From NCBI RefSeq assembly GCF_020037125.1, contig NZ_JAIQDG010000004.1, positions 186,001-250,000 on the forward strand: DNA of 64,000 nt, given 5' to 3'. Below, one piece after another: positions 13,822 through 22,300 of the stretch; position 1 is the first letter of the stretch, and every line of letters begins with the position of its first letter. The DNA is from Myxococcus sp. RHSTA-1-4 (GTDB taxonomy: Bacteria; Myxococcota; Myxococcia; Myxococcales; Myxococcaceae). Both the position numbers and the translations under genes were made by a program. A model generated the notes under the pieces. The model was not told the DNA's origin. It ran no database searches and saw nothing but the letters and a program-made list of their open reading frames with translations.

Positions 13822-14496
13822 ATGGCGCCCCGAGAAGCCCTCCACCCCTTCTTCATCGATGAAAGCGTGAAGCCCCGGCTGCGGGGCCTGTCGCACCTGC
13901 TCGCGGCGGTGGCGGCGCTCGCCGGCTGCATCCAGCTCGCGCTGGCCCCCGCCCAGGGTGCTCAGTACCTGGCGGCCCTGGTGTTCGGCGTCAGCCTGGT
14001 GCTGATGTTCGGTGTCAGCGGGACGTACCACTGGCCTACCTGGGGCCCCGCCGCCTACCGGCGCCTCCAGCGGTGTGACCACGCCGCCATCTACCTCCTC
14101 ATCGCCGGCAGCTTCACGCCCATGGCCACGCTGGAGACGAAGAGCGGCTGGAGCGGGACACTCCTCGCGGTGATGTGGGGTGGCGCCCTCCTCGGCGCGT
14201 CACTCACCCTGCTCGGCATCTCCACGTCACGGGGGCTGCGCTCCGCGCTCTACGTCGCCCTGGGCACGGTGGCGGCGCCGGTGATGCTGCTGCTGCCGGA
14301 CGTCATCGGCCCGGGGCGCGTCGCCTGGCTCGTCACCGGCGGCGTCCTCTATGCGCTGGGCGCGGGCGTCTACGCGCGCCGGTGGCCCGACCCGAAGCCC
14401 ACGGTGTTCGGCTACCACGAGGTGTTCCACCTCATGGTCATCGCCGCCGCCGGCGTGCACTACGGCGTGCTCATCGACGTCCTGTGGAGCCGGTGA
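13822..14496 (+). CDS. Haemolysin III / PAQR-family membrane protein
   Basis: A 224-residue inner-membrane protein with seven predicted helices. Family marks are GVSGTYHW (residues about 63-70), DHAAIYLLIAGSFTP (about 85-99) and HEVFHLMVIAAAGVHYG near the C-terminus; the Ser/His set resembles the zinc-binding site of PAQR-type hydrolases. Family knowledge: members are named for haemolytic activity of one Bacillus protein, and recent work links bacterial homologues to membrane-energetics control. Start at 13822 (MAPREALHP) leaves the N-terminus short and cytoplasmic. It converges with the RiPP operon with only one base between stops. No operon partner. Confidence 0.85.
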   Translation: MAPREALHPFFIDESVKPRLRGLSHLLAAVAALAGCIQLALAPAQGAQYLAALVFGVSLVLMFGVSGTYHWPTWGPAAYRRLQRCDHAAIYLLIAGSFTPMATLETKSGWSGTLLAVMWGGALLGASLTLLGISTSRGLRSALYVALGTVAAPVMLLLPDVIGPGRVAWLVTGGVLYALGAGVYARRWPDPKPTVFGYHEVFHLMVIAAAGVHYGVLIDVLWSR

Positions 14497-14497
14497 G

Positions 14498-15076
14498 CTA
14501 CGCGCGCACCAGCACCGCGGGCAGGCCCGGCACCTTGAGGAACTCCACGCGCGTGGGGCGCACCGGCACCTCCGGCCAGCCCGGCTGCGCCAGCGCGGCC
14601 AGCAGCTCCGTCACCGGGTACTGGAAGTCCTCGAAGTGGCTCGGCCCGGACATGGGATGCAGGCCCCACGCGAGCGCGATGCGCAGCCGCTCACAGCGGG
14701 CCAGGTCCGCCATGTACGCCGGCAGCGTCCCGCGCGGGGCCGCCTCCAGGTAGCGGCAGAAGGCGATGGCCTCCTCGCGGTTGAGCAGCTCCGGCAGCGC
14801 GTCCTGGAGGAAGCCGCGCAGCACCGGCAGCAGGCCGGGCCGAACGGCGGGGTCCGCCCACGGCAGGTGCTCGTGCACGCGCGACAGGCGGTGTCCGTCC
14901 AGCATCCGCCCCGCCCGCTCCACCACGATGGCGTCCGTGGCGGCCAGGCCCTCGCGCTCACGCGGCGTCAGCGCGTACGGCGCCAGGGCGGCGTTCGCGT
15001 CCCTCAGCCAGGCCTCGCGGAAGCGCGCATCCACGTGAAGCCGCGCCAGCACCTCCAGCGTCTCCGAGTAACCCAT
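14498..15076 (-). CDS. DUF2063/HvfC-type partner protein of the MNIO enzyme
   Basis: A 192-residue, mostly helical protein with no signal peptide. Its layout, an N-terminal helical DNA-binding-like fold of the DUF2063 type, and its place directly after a DUF692 gene match the BufC/HvfC partner proteins, which bind the precursor's leader and are needed for DUF692 activity. The similarity is judged by eye and context, so the family call is moderate. It is the last gene of the RiPP operon, 12 bp after the MNIO stop, and converges on the haemolysin-III gene. A role in delivering the CSCGG peptides to the MNIO is inferred. Confidence 0.65.
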   Translation of the reverse strand: MGYSETLEVLARLHVDARFREAWLRDANAALAPYALTPREREGLAATDAIVVERAGRMLDGHRLSRVHEHLPWADPAVRPGLLPVLRGFLQDALPELLNREEAIAFCRYLEAAPRGTLPAYMADLARCERLRIALAWGLHPMSGPSHFEDFQYPVTELLAALAQPGWPEVPVRPTRVEFLKVPGLPAVLVRA

Positions 15077-15088
15077 GGTGTCGTCCCC

Positions 15089-15922
15089 TCAGGCCGCGCT
15101 CGCGCCGCAGCGCTCGAGGATGGCCCGCGCACGGGCCAGCTCCTCCACCAGCCGCGGGAAGGGCGGGAAGCCGCTGTCCATCTCGAAGTTCACCCCGCGC
15201 ACCGGGCAGCGCGGCGCCACGTACTCCAAGAGCCGCCACACCTCGTCCGGCGATACCGAGGAGTGGCTGTCCACGTACACGCCCTCCATCGTCACCCCAC
15301 CCGCCAGGTGAATCTGCACCACCCTGTCCAGCGGGAGCCGGTCCACGAAGCGGTACGGGTCGAACTTGTGGTTCACCGCGTTGGCGTAGACGTTGTGCAG
15401 GTCCAGGAGCAGGCCGCAGTCCGCGCCCGTCACCACGCGGGTGAGGAAGTCCGCCTCGTCCAGCGTGCTCAGCGGCGTGTCGAACAACCAGGCGATGTTC
15501 TCCACGATGAAGGGCTGCGCCAGCTCCGCCTGGACACGGCGGATGTTGCGCACGCACGTCTCCAGCGCCTCCTCGGTGAAGGGCACCGGAGTGAGCGAGC
15601 GCACCGGCAGCTCGCCCGCCCGCGTGAAGCACAGGTGGTCCGAGTGCCACGCCGCCCGGGTGAGGCCCAGGAGCCGCTTGAGGCTCTCCCGGTAGTCCGG
15701 CCCGTCCACGCCGTCCGAGCCCACGGACAGCTCCAGTCCGTGGCCGGCCAGCGGGTAACGCTTCGCCAGCACCTCCAGCCGCCGCACCGTGTCTTCCGTC
15801 AGCGGGAAGAAGTGCTCCGGCATCACCTCCAGCCAGTCCACGCCCGGGTTGCCCCGGCCGAGGTGCGGTTGGAAGTCCCAGCGGTAGCTGAGCCCCACTC
15901 CGAGGTATGGAATCGCCGCCAC
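15089..15922 (-). CDS. DUF692 multinuclear non-haem iron oxidase (MNIO), RiPP-modifying
   Basis: A 277-residue TIM-barrel enzyme of the DUF692 family. Candidate metal ligands and strand motifs in order: GHGLELSVG (about 60-68), WHSDHLCFT (about 91-99), FIVENIAWLF (about 138-147), LLLDLHNVYANAVN (about 170-183), VVQIHLAGG (about 200-208), VDSHSSV and VNFEMDSG near the end. These His, Asp, Asn and Glu sets match the three-iron site of MbnB/TglH-type enzymes. Family knowledge: such enzymes oxidise Cys in precursor peptides to oxazolone/thioamide, thiooxazole or related groups. GTG start at 15922 is chosen because AGGAGG lies 7 bp upstream and overlaps the preceding stop region. The CSCGG precursors upstream are the expected substrate. 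Confidence 0.85.
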   Translation of the reverse strand: MAAIPYLGVGLSYRWDFQPHLGRGNPGVDWLEVMPEHFFPLTEDTVRRLEVLAKRYPLAGHGLELSVGSDGVDGPDYRESLKRLLGLTRAAWHSDHLCFTRAGELPVRSLTPVPFTEEALETCVRNIRRVQAELAQPFIVENIAWLFDTPLSTLDEADFLTRVVTGADCGLLLDLHNVYANAVNHKFDPYRFVDRLPLDRVVQIHLAGGVTMEGVYVDSHSSVSPDEVWRLLEYVAPRCPVRGVNFEMDSGFPPFPRLVEELARARAILERCGASAA

Positions 15923-15932
15923 GACGGACCTC

Positions 15933-16769
15933 CTACTTCCTGCGCGCCATCACCTGGAAGTGCTGCCCCTGCAACGCGAAGCCCTCGTGCGCGAACTTCT
16001 CCTGCAGCGCGATGATTTCGTCGCGCGCCGCCCACACGTCGAAGTCCGGCCCGCGCTCGGCCTGCATCGCCTCCAGCATCTCGAAGTACATGACGGGCTT
16101 GCCGAAGATTTCCTCCACCTCCGCGCCCGCGGCCGTCACGCCGTCATGCAGCTCCTTGAGGGTGAAGAGGTGCACCGGCAACCCGTACGGGCACTTGCCG
16201 CGCCCCGTCAGCAGCATCTTCAGGGCCTCGGCCTTCTTGCCGTGCTTCAGCTCGAACATGAAGTGCTCGTGCCGGTTGTCCACGCCCATGATGACCGGCC
16301 CGCGCGGCTTCACCACGCGCACCAGCTCGCTCATGGCCTTGGGGTACTGGTCCAGGCAGTAGGACACCGGGTCGCCCTCGCTGAAGACCAGGTCGAACGA
16401 CGCGTCCTCGAAGGGCAGTTCCGCCACCGTGCCCTCGATGAAGGTGGCCCGCTCCAGGAGCCCCTTGGAGGACAGGTGCGCCTTCGCCGCGTCCAGCATG
16501 CCCGCGGAGATGTCCAGCACGGTGACCTGGTGGCCGGCCTCCGCGAAGCGCGCGCTGAACTTGCCGCCGCCGCCGCCCGCGTCCAGCACGCGCCAGACGG
16601 TGCCGGCCGGGGGCAGCACCTTCTCCACCGCCTTCCAGGTGAGGTGCTCGTAGACCACCCAGAACAGCTTGTGGGCCGCCTTGGTGTAGTTGCTGGCGTT
16701 GTACGTGGACGACACCTGGTCGTAGCGGCTGGAGATGGACTGGGGCTGGGGAACGGTGGCGGTGCTCAT
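15933..16769 (-). CDS. Class I SAM-dependent methyltransferase of the RiPP operon
   Basis: A 278-residue cytoplasmic enzyme. SAM motif I is VLDAGGGGGKFSARFAEAG (about 67-85), followed by the acidic strand TVLDIS (about 88-93); FDLVFSEGDPVSYC is the motif IV-like strand. Motif order fits the ubiquinone/methyltransferase-11-like group. GGAGAG precedes the ATG at 16769. It lies 20 bp after the outer-membrane gene and 10 bp before the MNIO gene. A tailoring methylation (for example on a thiol, as seen in some MNIO clusters) is inferred from context only; a substrate cannot be read from the sequence. No signal for another pathway is nearby. Confidence 0.75.
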   Translation of the reverse strand: MSTATVPQPQSISSRYDQVSSTYNASNYTKAAHKLFWVVYEHLTWKAVEKVLPPAGTVWRVLDAGGGGGKFSARFAEAGHQVTVLDISAGMLDAAKAHLSSKGLLERATFIEGTVAELPFEDASFDLVFSEGDPVSYCLDQYPKAMSELVRVVKPRGPVIMGVDNRHEHFMFELKHGKKAEALKMLLTGRGKCPYGLPVHLFTLKELHDGVTAAGAEVEEIFGKPVMYFEMLEAMQAERGPDFDVWAARDEIIALQEKFAHEGFALQGQHFQVMARRK

Positions 16770-16789
16770 GTCGGGGCTCTCCGGCGGCT

Positions 16790-18910
16790 TCAGTACGTGA
16801 AGGAGACTTTCGAGAGGATGCGGCGCTCCTGCGCGCCGTTGAAGGGCTGGTCCGAGTAGACGAGGAAGATGTCGCTCCACTGGCGGTAGTGCCAGCCGAA
16901 GACGGCGTCCACCAGCGTGCCCTTCACGTTGCTGTAGTCGGCCAGCTCGTGCACCTTGCCGTGCTGCAGGGTGAGGCGGGTGTAGAGGTTGGGGTTGAAC
17001 TGGTAGCGGAGCTGGGCGTAGCCGCTCCACGAGTATCCGGTGCCGGAGTCGCCATACAGCTCGCTGTTCTCCGGGACGTCCTCGCTGCGGCTGTAGAAGC
17101 CGCTGAGGCGGGCCTGGAAGCGAGGTCCAACCTTGAGGTTGAGCGCGCCGTTGACGCCGCGCACCGGGCCGCCCAGGAAGCGGCCGCCGAAGGCCGTGAG
17201 CGTCAGGCTCTGCCAGTCGTTGGGGAAGAGGATGAAGCCGCCCGTGGCCACCCGGTCCTCGAAGCCCTCGTTGTCGTCGTGCACGTAGTCCGCGTAGAGG
17301 GCGAAGTTGTGGTGCAGGTAGGGCTGGAGGTTGAAGCGCTGCCGGTAGCGGGTGCGCACGTGCTCGTGGTTGCGCCGCCAGAGGGTGTCCCAGGTGATGT
17401 TCACCTGCGGCAGGAAGCGCAGCTTGGGGAACGGCGTCAGGTACAGGTGCGTGTTCCAGCCCTGCTTGTCGAGCACCGGCGTGTAGCCCAGCGGGTTGGC
17501 GTACCGCGCGCCGATGTCCTCCAGGTGGATCCAGAACTCGGAGTTGGTGTCGAAGCGGTGGATGGCGAACTTGTACGCGTCCGAGTCCTTCGAGCCCGCC
17601 ACGTCGCTCCAGCTCTTCAGCGCCTGGGCCTGGATGAAGATCTCCTCCCAGATGTGGATGTTGGCGTCGACGCCCGTGGTGCGGAACCAGCCGTACTTGT
17701 CGCCGTAGCGGCTGACACCGATGAGGTTGATGGCCGAGCGCTTCCCGATGTCCTGCTGGAGGCGGATGATGCCGGAGTTGAGGTTCTCCTTGATGTTGGT
17801 GCCGTCCCCCGGGTCGTCCTTGTGCTGCACGTCGAGGAGCGCGAAGCCCAGGCCGCCCACCTTGCCGGTGAGCTGCGCGCCGCCGAGCACCTGGTCATGC
17901 GGCTTCATGGCGATGCGGCGGGACGTGAAGATCTTGATGGGCGCCAGGAAGAGGTGCTCGCTCTCCACGAAGAAGGGCCGGCGCTCGGGCAGCAGCGGCT
18001 CCTCGGTGTCCAGCAGCAGCCGGTCCTGGTCCGCCTCCACGTCGGAGAAGTCCGGGTTGACGGTCAGCTTCAGCGCCGCCCAGGGCACCGGGTCCAGGCG
18101 CGCGTCGAAGCCGGCCTTGGGCCGGAACATCTTCCGGTCCTCGGTGGTCTGGAGCGCCAGGTCCGTGGCCACGTACGGGGTGACGCTCCACTTGCGGCGC
18201 CCCTCGATTCCCTTGAGGCCCGTCAGGTGCGGGAAGCGGCTCACCTTGGCGCTGTTGACGCCGTCGGGCGTCCAGTTGCTCCACTCCTGGGTGCGGGCCT
18301 GCTCGCGGTCCAGCATCAGGCCGAACGTCATCTCCTCCTTCTCCGGGAACTGGAAGTTGGCGAAGGGGATGCGCACCTCGGCAATCCATCCGTCATCGAC
18401 GATGGTGGACTTGGACTCCCACTCGCCCGCCCAGGAGGTGGTGAAGGCCTCGCCGTCCGCGACGATGCGCCCGTCGGTGCGCACGCCCAGCGGGTTGGTC
18501 CAGAAGTAGTACGCGTTGCGGTGGTCCTGGAAGGTGTCCAGCATCACCGTGATGTTGTCCTCCTGGTGGAGGAAGCTCTCGTTCTGGACGCTGTAGGCCG
18601 TGATTTTCGACGGGTCCTTGTCCAGGCAGTGGAAGAGCACGTACAGGTTGTGCTTGTCGTAGAGGATGCGGACCCGGGTGTCGTCACGCGCGGGCTGCCC
18701 GTAGTCGATGCGCGTGAGGTGCCAGCCGTCGACCTCCGGGGCCGTCTGCCACACGGCCTCGTCCGGCTTGCCGTCGATGGTGATGGGGTCGGGCGTGAAG
18801 GTGGCCTTGTAGTTGTAGTGCTGCTTGTCCGCGGGTGAGTCGGCGAGGGCCAGGGTGGGCAGACACGCGCCGAGCAGCGCGGCGCCCCAGACTCGGGTTG
18901 AGGTTTTCAT
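16790..18910 (-). CDS. DUF5916 outer-membrane barrel with CBM9-like domain
   Basis: A 706-residue exported protein. Residues 1-23 form a signal peptide (ends LALA). About 35-210 is a carbohydrate-binding-family-9-like domain (DPITIDGKPDEAVWQTAP, then DDGWIAEVRIPFANF). About 230-706 is a beta-barrel with many alternating Tyr/Leu/Arg strands, and the chain ends in SFTY, a terminal aromatic typical of outer-membrane barrels. DUF5916 is common in myxobacteria and Bacteroidetes. Its ATG overlaps the exporter's stop (ATGA), so it belongs to the RiPP operon. A surface receptor or export pore for the peptide is inferred. An unrelated carbohydrate role is possible but does not explain the coupling. 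Confidence 0.8.
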   Translation of the reverse strand: MKTSTRVWGAALLGACLPTLALADSPADKQHYNYKATFTPDPITIDGKPDEAVWQTAPEVDGWHLTRIDYGQPARDDTRVRILYDKHNLYVLFHCLDKDPSKITAYSVQNESFLHQEDNITVMLDTFQDHRNAYYFWTNPLGVRTDGRIVADGEAFTTSWAGEWESKSTIVDDGWIAEVRIPFANFQFPEKEEMTFGLMLDREQARTQEWSNWTPDGVNSAKVSRFPHLTGLKGIEGRRKWSVTPYVATDLALQTTEDRKMFRPKAGFDARLDPVPWAALKLTVNPDFSDVEADQDRLLLDTEEPLLPERRPFFVESEHLFLAPIKIFTSRRIAMKPHDQVLGGAQLTGKVGGLGFALLDVQHKDDPGDGTNIKENLNSGIIRLQQDIGKRSAINLIGVSRYGDKYGWFRTTGVDANIHIWEEIFIQAQALKSWSDVAGSKDSDAYKFAIHRFDTNSEFWIHLEDIGARYANPLGYTPVLDKQGWNTHLYLTPFPKLRFLPQVNITWDTLWRRNHEHVRTRYRQRFNLQPYLHHNFALYADYVHDDNEGFEDRVATGGFILFPNDWQSLTLTAFGGRFLGGPVRGVNGALNLKVGPRFQARLSGFYSRSEDVPENSELYGDSGTGYSWSGYAQLRYQFNPNLYTRLTLQHGKVHELADYSNVKGTLVDAVFGWHYRQWSDIFLVYSDQPFNGAQERRILSKVSFTY

Positions 18911-20205
18911 CCGGGCTCCTGGGATGGGGTGAGGACGGGGGTGTGGGGCACTGCGGCCGGCGCGGTTCGGTCCGGTGCCCAGGCCATGGCGACCAGGGAC
19001 AGGAGCAACGCGCCGGAGGACAACAGGAAGGCACTGGACAGCCCGGCGTTCCGGGCGACGAAGCCGTAGCTGAGCGGGGCCAGGACCTGGGCGAGCGCCG
19101 CGCACGCGCCCAGCGCGCCCAGGAAGCGGCCGCGCTCCGGGGCCGGGGCCACCTCCACCACCACCGCCTGCGCGGAAGGACGGTGCAGGCCGTCCGGCAC
19201 CGCCAGCAGCGCCCAGGCGGCCACCATGACGGCGAGGCCGTACGGCGCCGGCAGCCACCCGGCCAGCCCGAGGACGGTGCTCATCAGCACCATGCCCGCG
19301 AGCCCCGCGAGGATGAGCCCGTTGCGCCGGGGCAGCGCGTCCGACAGCCGCCCGCCGAAGGGCTGGGCGAAGGCGTAGACGAGCCAGGAGACGGAGACCA
19401 GCGGCCCCACGGCCTCGGGCGGCGCGCCCAGCTGCTGCGCGTAGAGCGGGATGTAGATGGGGAAGAGGTTGAGGGAGAAGGCGAAGAAGAACTGCCAGGC
19501 GAACAGCCCCACCAGCCGCGGCGAGCTCCGCATGTAGTCCAGCGGGGCGCGCACCGCCTCCAGCGCCGTGCGCAGGTGGCCGCCGGACGCGCGCGCCTTC
19601 GGGGCCTCGCGCGCCGGCTCCTGGAGGCGCAGCAGGAGCAGGCTGCTGACGAGGAAGAGCGCGCCGGCGAGGAAGAAGGTGTAGCGCGTGGACAGCCAGC
19701 GGATGACGGGCGCGGAGGCCCACAGCGCCACCACGAAGGTGAGGCTGCTGGTGGCGTCCAGGAGGGAGAAGATGGTGGCGCGCTTCTTCGACGGCGCGAA
19801 GTCCGCCACCAGCGCGCCGTTCACCGGCTGCGCGCTGCGCGCCAGCAGCAGCTTGAGCGACAGCGCCGCGGCCAGCGGCAGCGGGTGAGAGAACAGCGCC
19901 ATCAGCGGCACCAGCAGCGAGGTGACCAGCGACAGGCCCACCACGAACGCCTTGCGGTTGTAGCGGTCCGACAGCGCCCCCATCACCGGCTGCAGGAAGA
20001 TGGGCACCAGCGAGCCCGCCGTGTACACCAGCCCGATGCCTTGCAGGTCCAGCCCGCGAGACTGGAGATAGAGCGGCATCACCGGGTTGAGCAGGCCCCC
20101 GGCCACCGTGCCCACCAGGCCGGACACGAGCAGCACGCGGAGGTTGCCCAGCCCGCGCGACAGCTCGTACATCTCGCGCACCGCGCGGACGCCCCGGGCA
20201 ATCAT
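18907..20205 (-). CDS. MFS exporter of the RiPP operon
   Basis: A 432-residue inner-membrane transporter with about 12 predicted helices in two halves, split by a cytoplasmic loop near residues 200-215. The MFS motif A analogue is GALSDRYNRKAF (about 66-77), and a second copy GGRLSDALPRRNG begins the other half (about 270-282). The fold suits an efflux-type drug/peptide exporter. Its ATG overlaps the S16-like gene stop (ATGA), and its own stop overlaps the next ATG, so three genes are coupled. An export role for the modified peptide across the inner membrane is inferred. Uptake is an alternative. Confidence 0.8.
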   Translation of the reverse strand: MIARGVRAVREMYELSRGLGNLRVLLVSGLVGTVAGGLLNPVMPLYLQSRGLDLQGIGLVYTAGSLVPIFLQPVMGALSDRYNRKAFVVGLSLVTSLLVPLMALFSHPLPLAAALSLKLLLARSAQPVNGALVADFAPSKKRATIFSLLDATSSLTFVVALWASAPVIRWLSTRYTFFLAGALFLVSSLLLLRLQEPAREAPKARASGGHLRTALEAVRAPLDYMRSSPRLVGLFAWQFFFAFSLNLFPIYIPLYAQQLGAPPEAVGPLVSVSWLVYAFAQPFGGRLSDALPRRNGLILAGLAGMVLMSTVLGLAGWLPAPYGLAVMVAAWALLAVPDGLHRPSAQAVVVEVAPAPERGRFLGALGACAALAQVLAPLSYGFVARNAGLSSAFLLSSGALLLSLVAMAWAPDRTAPAAVPHTPVLTPSQEPG

Positions 20206-20831
20206 GCCGCCCCCCCTCCGGCTCCCCTGGTGGCCGCGGCATCCTGACGGAGCGGCAGCGCGCCCAGCACGGCCTCGGCGCCCGCGGTGAGGCTGGGGAC
20301 GGGGCGGACATCCAGCGACACGAGCGGCGCGGCGTCCCACTGGCTGCCGGCGGGGACCCACACCGGCACGCGCCCGGCGGCCGGGTGGACCTGGCGCACA
20401 TAACCATCCGCCACCACCAGCTTGCCCTGGAGCTTCTCGAGCGGCGCGGCGAGGAGTGCGTCCCCCGCGTCCAGCGCCACGCCGGTGGCCAGGAAGGGCG
20501 AGGGCAGCTCGCGCCCGGCCAGCAGCGCCACCCACGCGACGAACAGCGGGAGGGACGCGCTGCGCCCGTCGAGCAGCACCCTGCGGCCCCGCACCGACAC
20601 GAACAGGTCCGTCTCGTCCCAGGGCAGCGCGTAGCGCCCGCGGCCCACGGCCGCCAGGTGGCGCAGGTGCTGCTGCCAGACCGGCGCGTAGCCGGTGTCC
20701 CGGGACAGGTCCACCCAGAGCCGCCCTTCCCCCGGGCGCACGGACACGTCGACGGACACGGCGCGGAACAGCGGGGCGCCCTGGAGGTCCGCCTGGGTGA
20801 GCAGCAGGAGTGGCGTGGAAGAAGAAGTCAC
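20202..20831 (-). CDS. S16 (Lon C-terminal fold)-like protein, candidate leader peptidase
   Basis: A 209-residue soluble protein. The stretch DGRSASLPLFVAWVAL (about 106-121) and the following LLAGRELPSPFLATGVAL resemble the Ser-containing strand-helix and the TGE-type strand of the Lon protease S16 domain; APLEKLQGKLVVA (about 150-162) resembles the region with the catalytic Lys. The dyad residue cannot be fixed by eye, so it may be active or a degenerate relative. It has no ATPase part, unlike Lon. The GTG at 20831 is the only fitting start but lacks a clear ribosome site. It is coupled to the MFS gene. A leader-removing peptidase for the precursors is inferred. Confidence 0.55.
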   Translation of the reverse strand: MTSSSTPLLLLTQADLQGAPLFRAVSVDVSVRPGEGRLWVDLSRDTGYAPVWQQHLRHLAAVGRGRYALPWDETDLFVSVRGRRVLLDGRSASLPLFVAWVALLAGRELPSPFLATGVALDAGDALLAAPLEKLQGKLVVADGYVRQVHPAAGRVPVWVPAGSQWDAAPLVSLDVRPVPSLTAGAEAVLGALPLRQDAAATRGAGGGAA

Positions 20832-20868
20832 GGGACGGGAAGGAAGAAAGGAAGGGATTGGGAAACCA

Positions 20869-20904
20869 CGGGCGGGCCGCGCCGCTGAGGGTGCCGCCCG
20901 CCCG
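20869..20904 (-). terminator. Strong GC stem-loop between precursor array and S16-like gene
   Basis: CGGGCGGGC (20869-20877) pairs perfectly with GCCCGCCCG (20896-20904); the loop is 18 nt. It follows the last precursor and precedes a T/C-rich stretch on the minus strand. It may partly stop transcription, leaving more precursor than enzyme message. Confidence 0.5.
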
Positions 20905-20914
20905 CGAGCCGCGA

Positions 20915-21016
20915 CTACTCCACGGTGCGCGTGTCGGTGGACACGGTCATGGTGCCGCCGCAGGAGCACTTGTCGGACGACGCGGCAACGCGAACGACCT
21001 GAGCCTTCACGTACAT
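20915..21016 (-). CDS. RiPP precursor peptide 5 (last in transcript)
   Basis: A 33-residue peptide. It starts MYVKAQVVRV, has ASSDKCSCGGTM, and ends with a tail that is rich in Thr and Val (TVSTDTRTVE). The first ~22 residues match the four sister copies at nearly all positions, and the tail is the longest of the five. AAAGAGG precedes the ATG. Two Cys separated by one Ser are the likely sites for DUF692 chemistry. There is no Gly-Gly or other classic cleavage site, so the leader boundary cannot be read. Too short for standard gene calls. Confidence 0.8.
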   Translation of the reverse strand: MYVKAQVVRVAASSDKCSCGGTMTVSTDTRTVE

Positions 21017-21060
21017 GGCGAACCTCTTTCGGGTGTGGGGTTGAGGGTTCCGCGAACGAC

Positions 21061-21090
21061 ACGGGCGGGGAGGAAGCCCTCCCCGCCCGT
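21061..21090 (-). terminator. 12-bp perfect stem-loop between precursors 4 and 5
   Basis: ACGGGCGGGGAG (21061-21072) pairs with CTCCCCGCCCGT (21079-21090) around a 6-nt loop. It lies 8 bp after the stop of the copy at 21099. It could block transcription, stabilise the upstream message against 3' decay, or both. Confidence 0.55.
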
Positions 21091-21098
21091 GGTGAGAA

Positions 21099-21194
21099 CT
21101 ACTCCGCGACCTGCACCGTCGCGGTCATGGTGCCGCCGCAGGAGCACTTGTCGGAGGAGGCGGAAACGCGAACGATCTGGGCCTTGACGTACAT
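21099..21194 (-). CDS. RiPP precursor peptide 4
   Basis: A 31-residue peptide. It starts MYVKAQIVRVSA, shares SSDKCSCGGTM, and ends TATVQVAE. GAAAGAGG precedes the ATG, and this upstream block (GAAAGAGGTCCACAC) is the same as that of copy 3, so the two arose by a recent duplication that included the ribosome site. A stem-loop follows it directly. Cys at about positions 17 and 19 are the candidate modification sites. Confidence 0.85.
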   Translation of the reverse strand: MYVKAQIVRVSASSDKCSCGGTMTATVQVAE

Positions 21195-21271
21195 GTGTGG
21201 ACCTCTTTCGGTGTTGCGGGTTGAGGGCTTTCGCCCGGCACGACGACTGCGGAACTGCAACCGCGTGGCGA

Positions 21272-21370
21272 CTACTGGATGACCGTGGCGGTATCGACGG
21301 ACATGGTGCCGCCGCAGGAGCACTTGTCGGACGACGCGGAGACGCGGACGATCTGGGCCTTGACGTACAT
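21272..21370 (-). CDS. RiPP precursor peptide 3
   Basis: A 32-residue peptide starting MYVKAQIVRVSA, with the shared SSDKCSCGGTM and the tail SVDTATVIQ. Unlike the others it has Ser after the core and ends in Gln instead of Glu. Its own GAAAGAGG ribosome site is shared with copy 4. The downstream spacer is less structured than those of copies 2 and 4 but contains a GGGC-GAAA-GCCC tetraloop hairpin at 21223-21234. Confidence 0.85.
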   Translation of the reverse strand: MYVKAQIVRVSASSDKCSCGGTMSVDTATVIQ

Positions 21371-21451
21371 GTGTGGACCTCTTTCGGTGTTGGGGTTGAA
21401 CCCGCACGCGCGCCGATGAGCCGGAGCGCGCACGGGGCACTACGGGCGACA

Positions 21452-21476
21452 CGGCGCGAAGGATTTCTTCGCGCCG
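21452..21476 (-). terminator. 10-bp perfect stem-loop after precursor 2
   Basis: CGGCGCGAAG (21452-21461) pairs with CTTCGCGCCG (21467-21476) around GATTT. It lies 11 bp beyond the stop of the copy at 21488. No U-tract follows on the minus strand. Confidence 0.5.
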
Positions 21477-21487
21477 CACCGTCACTA

Positions 21488-21580
21488 CTACTCGAGCACC
21501 CTGACAGTGGTCATGGTGCCGCCGCAGGAGCACTTGTCGGACGACGCGGCAACGCGGACGATCTCGGCCTTCACGTACAT
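21488..21580 (-). CDS. RiPP precursor peptide 2
   Basis: A 30-residue peptide. It starts MYVKAEIVRVAA, the only copy with Glu at residue 6, has SSDKCSCGGTM, and ends TTVRVLE. The tail carries an Arg. The reading frame ends in a double stop, TAGTAG. GAAGAGG precedes the ATG. Confidence 0.85.
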   Translation of the reverse strand: MYVKAEIVRVAASSDKCSCGGTMTTVRVLE

Positions 21581-21721
21581 GGTGGACCTCTTCGATTTCG
21601 GGTGTGGAGACACACCTCTCCCGTTCCGGCGAGCCGGCTGATGCGGACGAGGTGCTGAGAGGGATTGGAGCGAAGAGGAAATCCTCCCCGCCCGGTAGTG
21701 ATTCGGGTTACCGCGCGGAGA

Positions 21722-21814
21722 CTACTCAGCGACGGTGAGCACCGTCATGGTGCCGCCGCAGGAGCACTTGTCGGACGACGCGGAGACGCGGACGATCTGG
21801 GCCTTGACGTACAT
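21722..21814 (-). CDS. RiPP precursor peptide 1 (first in transcript)
   Basis: A 30-residue peptide starting MYVKAQIVRVSA, with SSDKCSCGGTM and the tail TVLTVAE. GATGAGG precedes the ATG. It lies 180 bp downstream of the PqqD-like gene, with the mutually exclusive hairpins in that gap. Among the five copies it is one of the two shortest. Confidence 0.85.
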   Translation of the reverse strand: MYVKAQIVRVSASSDKCSCGGTMTVLTVAE

Positions 21815-21840
21815 GGTGAACCTCATCGGTGTTGGGTTGG

Positions 21841-21909
21841 GCCTGTGCAGTGAAACACCTCGTTCCGCGTCACAGGCTTCGTGTGTGTTTCACAAGGCGA
21901 AACACACAC
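21841..21909 (-). promoter_or_regulatory. Alternative stem-loops between pqqD-like gene and precursor 1
   Basis: Three perfect inverted repeats overlap. A: GTGTGTGTTTC (21881-21891) with GAAACACACAC (21899-21909). B: GTGAAACAC (21850-21858) with GTGTTTCAC (21885-21893). C: GCCTGTG (21841-21847) with CACAGGC (21871-21877). A and C can form together, while B uses part of A and interlocks with C. That is the layout of an attenuator or switch just ahead of the precursor message. No ligand or leader peptide is visible. Confidence 0.5.
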
Positions 21910-21994
21910 AGCTGGCGGTTCTTCGCGCAAGGCGCGGCCATGGCCAGACAGGCCAGGGAAGAACCTGATGCGTTACATTGGGTGGGGGGACGTC

Positions 21995-22300
21995 TCAGGA
22001 AACTCCGGACGCCTCGCAGAGTCCGAGCTCCAGGAACTGAGCTACAGTACTCTGAACGTCCTCGGCGATTTCATGTCGCGGAGCAGATGCGCCCAGATTG
22101 CTGGCGAGCGCATCCACCGCGGCCTCGAGCGTGCTCCCGCTACGGCACAGCTCGAAGATGCGAGCGGCGGTTTCGTTTACCCGGAAGACTTCGCCACCTT
22201 CGGTGTCCAGGAGGAAGTACGCGTCCTGCTGCTGCTGGACCATGACACCGGCCACTGCTCGTGGAAGGACCAAGGTGCGTTCTCCTGGTGATCGCGGCAC
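21995..22300 (-). CDS. PqqD-like RiPP recognition protein
   Basis: A 101-residue protein of the PqqD (RRE) fold: a three-stranded start with the typical FLLDTEGGEVFRVNETAARIF (split here: FLLDTEGGEV, then FRVNETAARIFELC; about residues 28-53) followed by three helices that end in FLELGLCE. Family knowledge: this domain binds the leader peptide of RiPP precursors and presents it to the modifying enzyme. It is first in the operon. GTG at 22300 is chosen because AAGGAG lies 7 bp upstream. It is a stand-alone protein, not fused to an enzyme. Finding it beside five tiny homologous ORFs is the strongest support that these are RiPP precursors. Confidence 0.8.
   Translation of the reverse strand: MPRSPGERTLVLPRAVAGVMVQQQQDAYFLLDTEGGEVFRVNETAARIFELCRSGSTLEAAVDALASNLGASAPRHEIAEDVQSTVAQFLELGLCEASGVS

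Follow-up and report, generated by a model that had tools for sequence, protein, structure and literature searches.

A candidate operon for MNIO-modified CxC peptides in Myxococcus sp. RHSTA-1-4 and other Myxococcaceae

We analyzed a stretch of 64,000 nucleotides from Myxococcus sp. RHSTA-1-4 (assembly GCF_020037125.1, contig NZ_JAIQDG010000004.1, positions 186,001 to 250,000 of the forward strand; hereafter the window, from a genome of 11.2 Mb) and describe an operon on its minus strand that runs from 22300 to 14498. As the best explanation of the whole, we consider it likely that the operon makes and exports a family of peptides modified by a multinuclear non-heme iron-dependent oxidative enzyme (MNIO, DUF692), and it probably represents a new class of ribosomally synthesized and post-translationally modified peptide (RiPP) natural product. 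At the level of sequence, this explanation draws on arrays of peptides that are constrained except in their free tails, on the gene order and co-occurrence, on a seven-unit fusion of the peptides and on a conserved Ser–Lys pair; it also draws on two predicted folds, those of a Lon-type protein and of a TglI-like MNIO partner.

Operon layout and precursor peptides

A preliminary description, made from the letters of the window, had proposed a one-directional gene set here, and all eight kinds of component do lie on the minus strand, in the following order:

21995–22300, minus: PqqD-like RiPP recognition element (RRE), 101 amino acids (aa), GTG start; Pfam PF05402, E 2.1e-13, 50.8 bits (cut-off 23.4)
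21722–21814, minus: precursor peptide 1, 30 aa, alternative start at 21826
21488–21580, minus: precursor peptide 2, 30 aa
21272–21370, minus: precursor peptide 3, 32 aa
21099–21194, minus: precursor peptide 4, 31 aa
20915–21016, minus: precursor peptide 5, 33 aa
20202–20831, minus: free-standing Lon proteolytic-domain protein, 209 aa, GTG start; predicted maturation protease
18907–20205, minus: major facilitator superfamily (MFS) transporter, 432 aa, ATGA overlap with the preceding gene; PF07690, E 9.1e-50
16790–18910, minus: CBM9/DUF5916 protein, 706 aa, predicted outer-membrane barrel; PF06452, E 1.8e-9, and PF19313, E 2.1e-7
15933–16769, minus: class I S-adenosylmethionine (SAM) methyltransferase, 278 aa; PF13649, E 4.6e-22
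15089–15922, minus: MNIO (DUF692) oxidase, 277 aa; PF05114, E 2.8e-79
14498–15076, minus: MNIO partner protein, 192 aa, TglI-like fold (PME-type 2)

The ATGA overlaps and 10–20 bp gaps noted earlier were recovered on measurement: the Lon-like gene overlaps the MFS gene, and the MFS gene the DUF5916 gene, by 4 bp (−4, ATGA in both cases), and the gaps that follow the DUF5916 gene are 20, 10 and 12 bp. The Pfam scores above likewise bear out the PqqD-like, DUF692, MFS and methyltransferase assignments.

Each of the five small open reading frames (ORFs), already described as homologous, has GAGG shortly upstream of its ATG, and their products share the start MYVKA[QE][IV]VRV[SA]ASSDKCSCGGTM and diverge thereafter. 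Among 36 congeneric peptides, 34 of which make up alignment A1, the ratio of nonsynonymous to synonymous differences per site (pN/pS) is 0.12 at codons 2–23 (0.15 for the window's five alone), pN is 0 in the CxCxxxM block, and tails of equal length, compared without gaps, give a pN/pS of 1.15. Most variation among these peptides falls at third positions, and the peptide frame is more conserved than the other five frames. The small ORFs are thus real genes, with purifying selection acting on their frame inside the genus, and a role as attenuators only was dropped in view of the within-genus pN/pS.

Two regular expressions gathered 82 monomers of 30–36 aa from 21 loci, each locus holding between two and nine peptide genes (five in the window). 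M1, Y2, R9, A12, D15, C17, C19 and M23 are invariant across the set, and K16 is kept in 81 of the 82, so that the pair K16-C17 is present in 81 and both cysteines in 82. Position 6 is always Q or E, as is the final residue (AE 56, AQ 11, IQ 6, LE 3, IE 3, VQ 2, VE 1), while the tails run to 7–13 residues rich in V, T, S, I, A and L. An [A/S/P][Q/E]↓I-like site, in which the arrow marks a boundary discussed below, occupies residues 5–7 (V7 once). The CSCGG motif first picked out in the window survives as the form found in its genus (CSCGGTM), but the general motif is wider, C[ST]Cxx[GT]M. Read by eye, none of the peptides carries a Sec signal or hydrophobic N-terminal stretch. Excluded from the monomers were the polyprotein described below and two decayed or diverged third copies, L113 at 3885 and L116 at 3615 of the oriented loci, which read DRCMCCG and GRCMCCG and end in AA instead of AE. 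In another locus (L118, 2406–3302, oriented) eight consecutive peptide genes are spaced at exactly 128 bp, and seven of them have one identical tail; this regularity indicates a recent expansion and that arrays can grow by tandem duplication.

Distribution of the operon and a seven-unit polyprotein

The operon was traced through 195 Myxococcota genomes, 96 of them from the family. An orthologous MNIO (91–93% identity) occurs in four of the 26 congeneric genomes searched, and the operon is present in each of these four, with peptide counts of 9, 7, 8 and 7. The DNA pattern SDKC[ST]CGG matched eight of the 195 genomes, including three from another genus of the family that hold the complete operon at protein identities of 59–76%. 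A profile of the 209-aa Lon-like protein found 22 of the 96 family genomes (5/27 in the window's genus, 2/2 in genus group g30, 14/16 in g31 and 1/7 in g33). The preliminary description had named homologous clusters that lack the tiny ORFs as evidence against it; peptides are present at 22/22 of these loci, as separate genes at 21 and as one seven-unit polyprotein at the last. The broader pattern DKC[ST]Cxx[GT]M matched 23 of the 195 genomes, which are the same 22 (88 sites, all within the locus) and G068, whose match, DKCWCRYTM, was discarded as lacking the true motif. The same pattern read backwards gave no match in the 195 genomes, forward or reverse. Together with the purifying selection on the peptide frame inside the genus, this absence shows that the peptide pattern is not a product of chance. 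The genomes with motif sites and those with the Lon-like gene are the same 22; both features are absent from the remaining 74 family genomes searched.

Gene order is identical in all 19 complete loci, which span four genus groups, while three more loci run off contig ends; the PqqD-like gene is the first operon gene in 22/22. Pairwise distances of the seven protein families correlate with one another across the 19 loci (r 0.80–0.98). The partner profile matched 24 of the 195 genomes, that is, the 22 plus G120, whose contig starts inside the MFS gene, and G130. G130 is a genome in one contig; within the 14 kb examined there, the operon is reduced to the end of the methyltransferase, 58 aa of the MNIO and a broken partner half, and neither a motif site nor a Lon-like match occurs anywhere in the genome. 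Since this relic has no array, the operon appears to have been lost as a unit. Homology searches with the Lon-like and partner proteins, which scored 7998 candidates sharing most words, gave 48 homologues each; many of these rows are nameless and mostly metagenomic, and the named ones all belong to Pyxidicoccus/Myxococcus, Corallococcus, Citreicoccus, Archangium or Myxococcaceae. Taken together, the comparison supports the earlier proposal of a dedicated MNIO RiPP operon that encodes several precursors at each locus.

Six MNIO loci at 39–45% identity (L046–L051, of many more) have none of the other operon proteins nearby, and a rough scan found other Cys ORFs or none, so these loci do not share the precursor of the window. 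One of them, L046 (G005:C22), lies in a congener that lacks the operon, where a 38-aa ORF with seven Cys starts 160 bp upstream of an MNIO 45–46% identical to that of the window and is a candidate MNIO precursor. Two others lie in the genome of the window itself: at L047 (G000:C73:37548-38348) the MNIO follows a captophorin-like protein with EGSCG motifs that by eye has a signal-peptide-like start, and at L048 (G000:C40:226510-227181) it follows a 126-aa protein, Tat-like by eye, with CPNCG. An MNIO-like segment (32–41% identity) was also seen in a long open frame (L004, G000:C65:30803-31255), possibly a fusion protein; such frames, of ∼550–720 aa in relatives, occur in 27/27 genus genomes searched.

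The exceptional 22nd locus (L119), from a metagenome-assembled Myxococcaceae genome, encodes a single ORF of 181 aa made of seven units, joined in the manner of LAAE↓IKRVSATTDKCTCSNGM. The residues that precede its units are KPQ, AAE, AAE, NAE, APE, NAE and VAA, giving junctions of the types PQ↓I, AE↓I and PE↓I. From these sequences we take [A/S/P][Q/E]↓I to be the unit boundary. With the boundary at this point, every unit includes the conserved IxRVxAxxDKCxCxx[GT]M block, and the polyprotein suggests that this block is integral to the repeat and not a plain disposable leader. Within the units, the block could either be kept in the product or serve as a repeated recognition sequence. A homology search with the polyprotein returned no match, not even the L119 polyprotein itself, which probably means that gene callers overlook such ORFs.

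The polyprotein bears directly on an alternative that we regard as unlikely, though it is one of the two best-surviving rivals. According to it, the MNIO does act on the peptides, yet what results is a metal buffer, kept or merely secreted in the manner of captophorins, and MYxxAQIVRVxAxxDK is an ordinary leader that is removed immediately ahead of the first Cys. The usual leader/core layout likewise pairs a conserved N-terminal part with a variable C-terminal one, and known Lys-Cys MNIO peptides bind copper (PMC13097082). Nevertheless, IxRVSATTDK recurs in nearly every unit of the polyprotein, and the AE ends are followed directly by the next I. A unit boundary accounts for this arrangement better than one N-terminal leader does, even if repeated recognition sequences would look alike. 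In addition, family scans found no metal-response regulator among the operon genes.

Predicted modifying enzymes and Lon-type protease, and the proposed pathway

In the MNIO, H61, H96, E141, D174, N177, H205, D218, H220 and E247 align with their counterparts in 3bww, TglH and MbnB and are invariant in 19/19 copies; we take these nine positions to be metal ligands. H176, which is shared with TglH only, is invariant too. Next to the MNIO, a DUF2063/HvfC-type partner had been expected, but neither the window protein nor its L084 counterpart matches DUF2063 in Pfam at E≤5; the predicted fold is instead TglI-like, and beyond TglI and Os1348 the fold matches are only short or weak. A search of the RRE against Protein Data Bank (PDB) sequences gave no match. 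The methyltransferase, searched in the same way, hit many kinds of class I methyltransferases, LahSB among them (best 2avn_A, E 1.6e-13). A scan with the PADLOC library gave one match only, of residues 43–169 of the methyltransferase to Mad2, and a role in phage defence was dropped. By eye, the DUF5916 protein has a signal-peptide-like N-terminus.

The 209-aa protein, originally called S16-like, matches no Pfam or NCBIfam family, so that the label stands on its modeled fold, which is that of a Lon proteolytic domain. (The alignments for the models, A5 and A6, hold 32 of 48 and 31 of 48 homologues, together with the window's protein.) The model predicts a free-standing Lon-type protease that consists of the Lon domain only, without the AAA+ ATPase domain, and we know of no free-standing Lon-type protease in RiPP maturation. 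Ser91 and Lys137 align with the catalytic Ser and Lys of Lon and are invariant in 33/33 aligned sequences and 22/22 operon copies, while the neighboring Lys133 varies (K, F or Y). This pattern makes it doubtful, to about the same degree as the metal-buffer alternative, that the Lon-like protein is a scaffold or peptide-binding pseudo-enzyme and that host proteases finish the peptides. The main text of a review of RiPP leader proteases (PMC10885120) does not mention Lon or S16.

From this anatomy we infer each catalytic step of the likely pathway, with the peptides as the substrate. In each precursor, the PqqD-like RRE would bind the conserved strand [AS][QE]I[VA]RV. The MNIO and its TglI-like partner would oxidize Lys-Cys within the DKC[ST]Cxx[GT]M motif, with a thiooxazole-type ring as the probable outcome. 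This step is proposed by analogy with fontiphorin, for which PMC13097082 describes a conversion of Lys-Cys to 5-thiooxazole, −4 Da per motif, by MNIOs with PME1 partners. The methyltransferase would cap the product, the Lon-type protease would free the unit by cleavage at [AS][QE]↓I, and transport across the two membranes would fall to the MFS and DUF5916 proteins. Each genome would in this way yield a small product set with one modified CxC head and a variable V/T/I-rich tail of 7–13 residues. More tentatively, and with less confidence than in the operon's overall role, we propose a new RiPP class. In it, a free-standing Ser-Lys protease of the Lon type, independent of ATP, would cut uniform units at A[EQ]↓I to give a genome-encoded library of CxC thiooxazoles, with a constant modified head, rapidly diversifying tails and a dedicated MFS and DUF5916 outer-membrane route.

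Several observations weigh against this pathway. The PDB profile search with the Lon-like protein was weak (E 0.053), hhalign gave a probability of 38% (E 3.4e-4) for its alignment with Lon, and a search of its own genome with PF05362 found no match at the Lon-like gene at E≤1. The seventh unit of the polyprotein begins VAA↓ITRL, without E or Q. The DUF5916 match is partial, with PF19313 covering positions 6–102 of 572 only. FonB favors Cys-Gly (PMC13097082), while Ser or Thr follows the first Cys here. Across all 82 peptides of all genera pN/pS is 0.62, so the low ratio carries less weight outside the genus, and since the co-occurrence is nested within one bacterial family, the 22 genomes are not independent. 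It is very improbable that the small ORFs are Cys-pair metal or redox proteins that act unmodified while the MNIO modifies something else, for although CxC is a common metal-binding motif and the peptides have no signal sequence on reading, they sit in an array that co-occurs with the MNIO operon in 22/22 genomes, was lost together with most of it in G130, and belongs to an operon headed by a PqqD-like RRE.

Accompanying features and relation to known systems

Stem-loops follow several of the peptide genes. Twelve stretches from eight loci were folded against shuffled sequences, and the features in the window are:

20832–20914, minus: GC-rich stem-loop after the last peptide, before the enzyme genes; minimum free energy −35.8 kcal/mol, z −1.8, 10 of 200 shuffles as good
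21017–21098, minus: stem-loop between peptides 4 and 5; z −4.3
21371–21487, minus: stem-loops between peptides 2 and 3; z −4.1
21581–21721, minus: stem-loops between peptides 1 and 2; z −3.2

Four of the five window stretches that follow peptides have z of −1.8 or lower, and two of the five (z −1.8 and −0.6) are not clearly beyond shuffles. A strong stem-loop follows the last peptide in 8/8 loci folded, with z of −2.7 or lower, down to −5.9, in the seven other loci. These stem-loops may keep peptide mRNA above enzyme mRNA. Between the RRE and the first peptide gene (21815–21994, minus), a stretch folded without shuffles, there is a long inverted repeat, GTGTGTGTTTC..GAAACACACAC, a possible regulatory or partial-termination site. 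At the 3′ end, a hemolysin-III family gene (13822–14496, plus; PF03006, E 9.9e-38) converges on the operon, as in all five congeneric loci, and upstream, outside the operon, an ORF at about 23400–22506 (minus) resembles a MenB/crotonase protein by eye only.

On the features compared (a conserved MNIO, an adjoining partner, small Cys precursors), the window fits the broad MNIO-RiPP kind, whereas assignment to captophorins/bufferins, methanobactins, pearlins, chryseobasins or aminopyruvatides was rejected, since the operon fails tested features of each. Captophorins and bufferins (FonABC, HvfABC, BufABC) likewise have an MNIO adjoining its partner and a Lys-Cys motif in the precursor, and their NCBIfam models are the closest to the window MNIO, which falls below both (BufB 210 bits, cut-off 310; HvfB 193 bits, cut-off 360). 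Unlike them, however, the window has a partner that is not DUF2063 (PME-type 1), precursors of 30–36 aa without a Sec signal, extra RRE, methyltransferase, Lon-like, MFS and DUF5916 genes, and four genes that separate the precursors from the MNIO. The pearlin (3-thiaglutamate) system TglHI shares the TglI-like partner fold, but no LanB-like PEARL gene is found among the operon genes of the window, which instead encodes many short CxC precursors. Methanobactin MbnABC acts through an MNIO on short Cys peptides, as is proposed here, though the MbnB model gives the window MNIO 17.6 of 325 bits; one MbnA contains PCSCM, which resembles the KCSC..M of the window peptides. With the aminopyruvatide model ApyH the score is 114.7 of 400 bits, below the cut-off. 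Unlike the classical Lon protease of S16, the window protein is a free-standing 209 aa without the ATPase and lies in a RiPP operon. Prochlorosin-type combinatorial RiPPs, which are lanthipeptides by chemistry, also serve many precursors with constant and variable parts by one enzyme set; here, in contrast, it is the likely modified motif that is constant and the tail that varies.

Bulbicupramide and mmr clusters (PMC12538549) have MNIO-modified Lys-Cys-Gly cassettes repeated in one precursor, as in the L119 polyprotein, but they differ in their DUF2063 partner, in the motif and in that the authors saw no protease gene nearby. Chryseobasin (ChrH) MNIO clusters also occur in Myxococcota (PMC12636315), but have a CPxCGxG-type motif and an extra C-terminal bundle in ChrH, whereas the motif of the window is DKC[ST]Cxx[GT]M and its MNIO scores 63.6 of 600 bits with the ChrH model. 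A study of the MNIO landscape (PMC12452194) looked for precursors among ORFs preceding the MNIO gene; in the window, the ORF directly before the MNIO is the methyltransferase. Since four genes stand between the 30–36 aa peptides and the MNIO, searches of this design are likely to miss the class. The main text of that study contains no mention of ‘myxo’, ‘methyltransferase’, ‘DUF5916’, ‘PqqD’, ‘MFS’ or ‘CxC’, and our search of the open-access literature, with subscription literature mostly outside its range, found no description of this cluster.

MNIO enzymes carry out unusual oxidative peptide chemistry, and the operon amounts to a built-in structure–activity series, in which a natural polyprotein points to the cut site and the candidate protease is of a type that is, to our knowledge, new to RiPP maturation. 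If the proposal is true, it would add a new product class for these well-known soil predators and a portable tool for releasing modified peptides.

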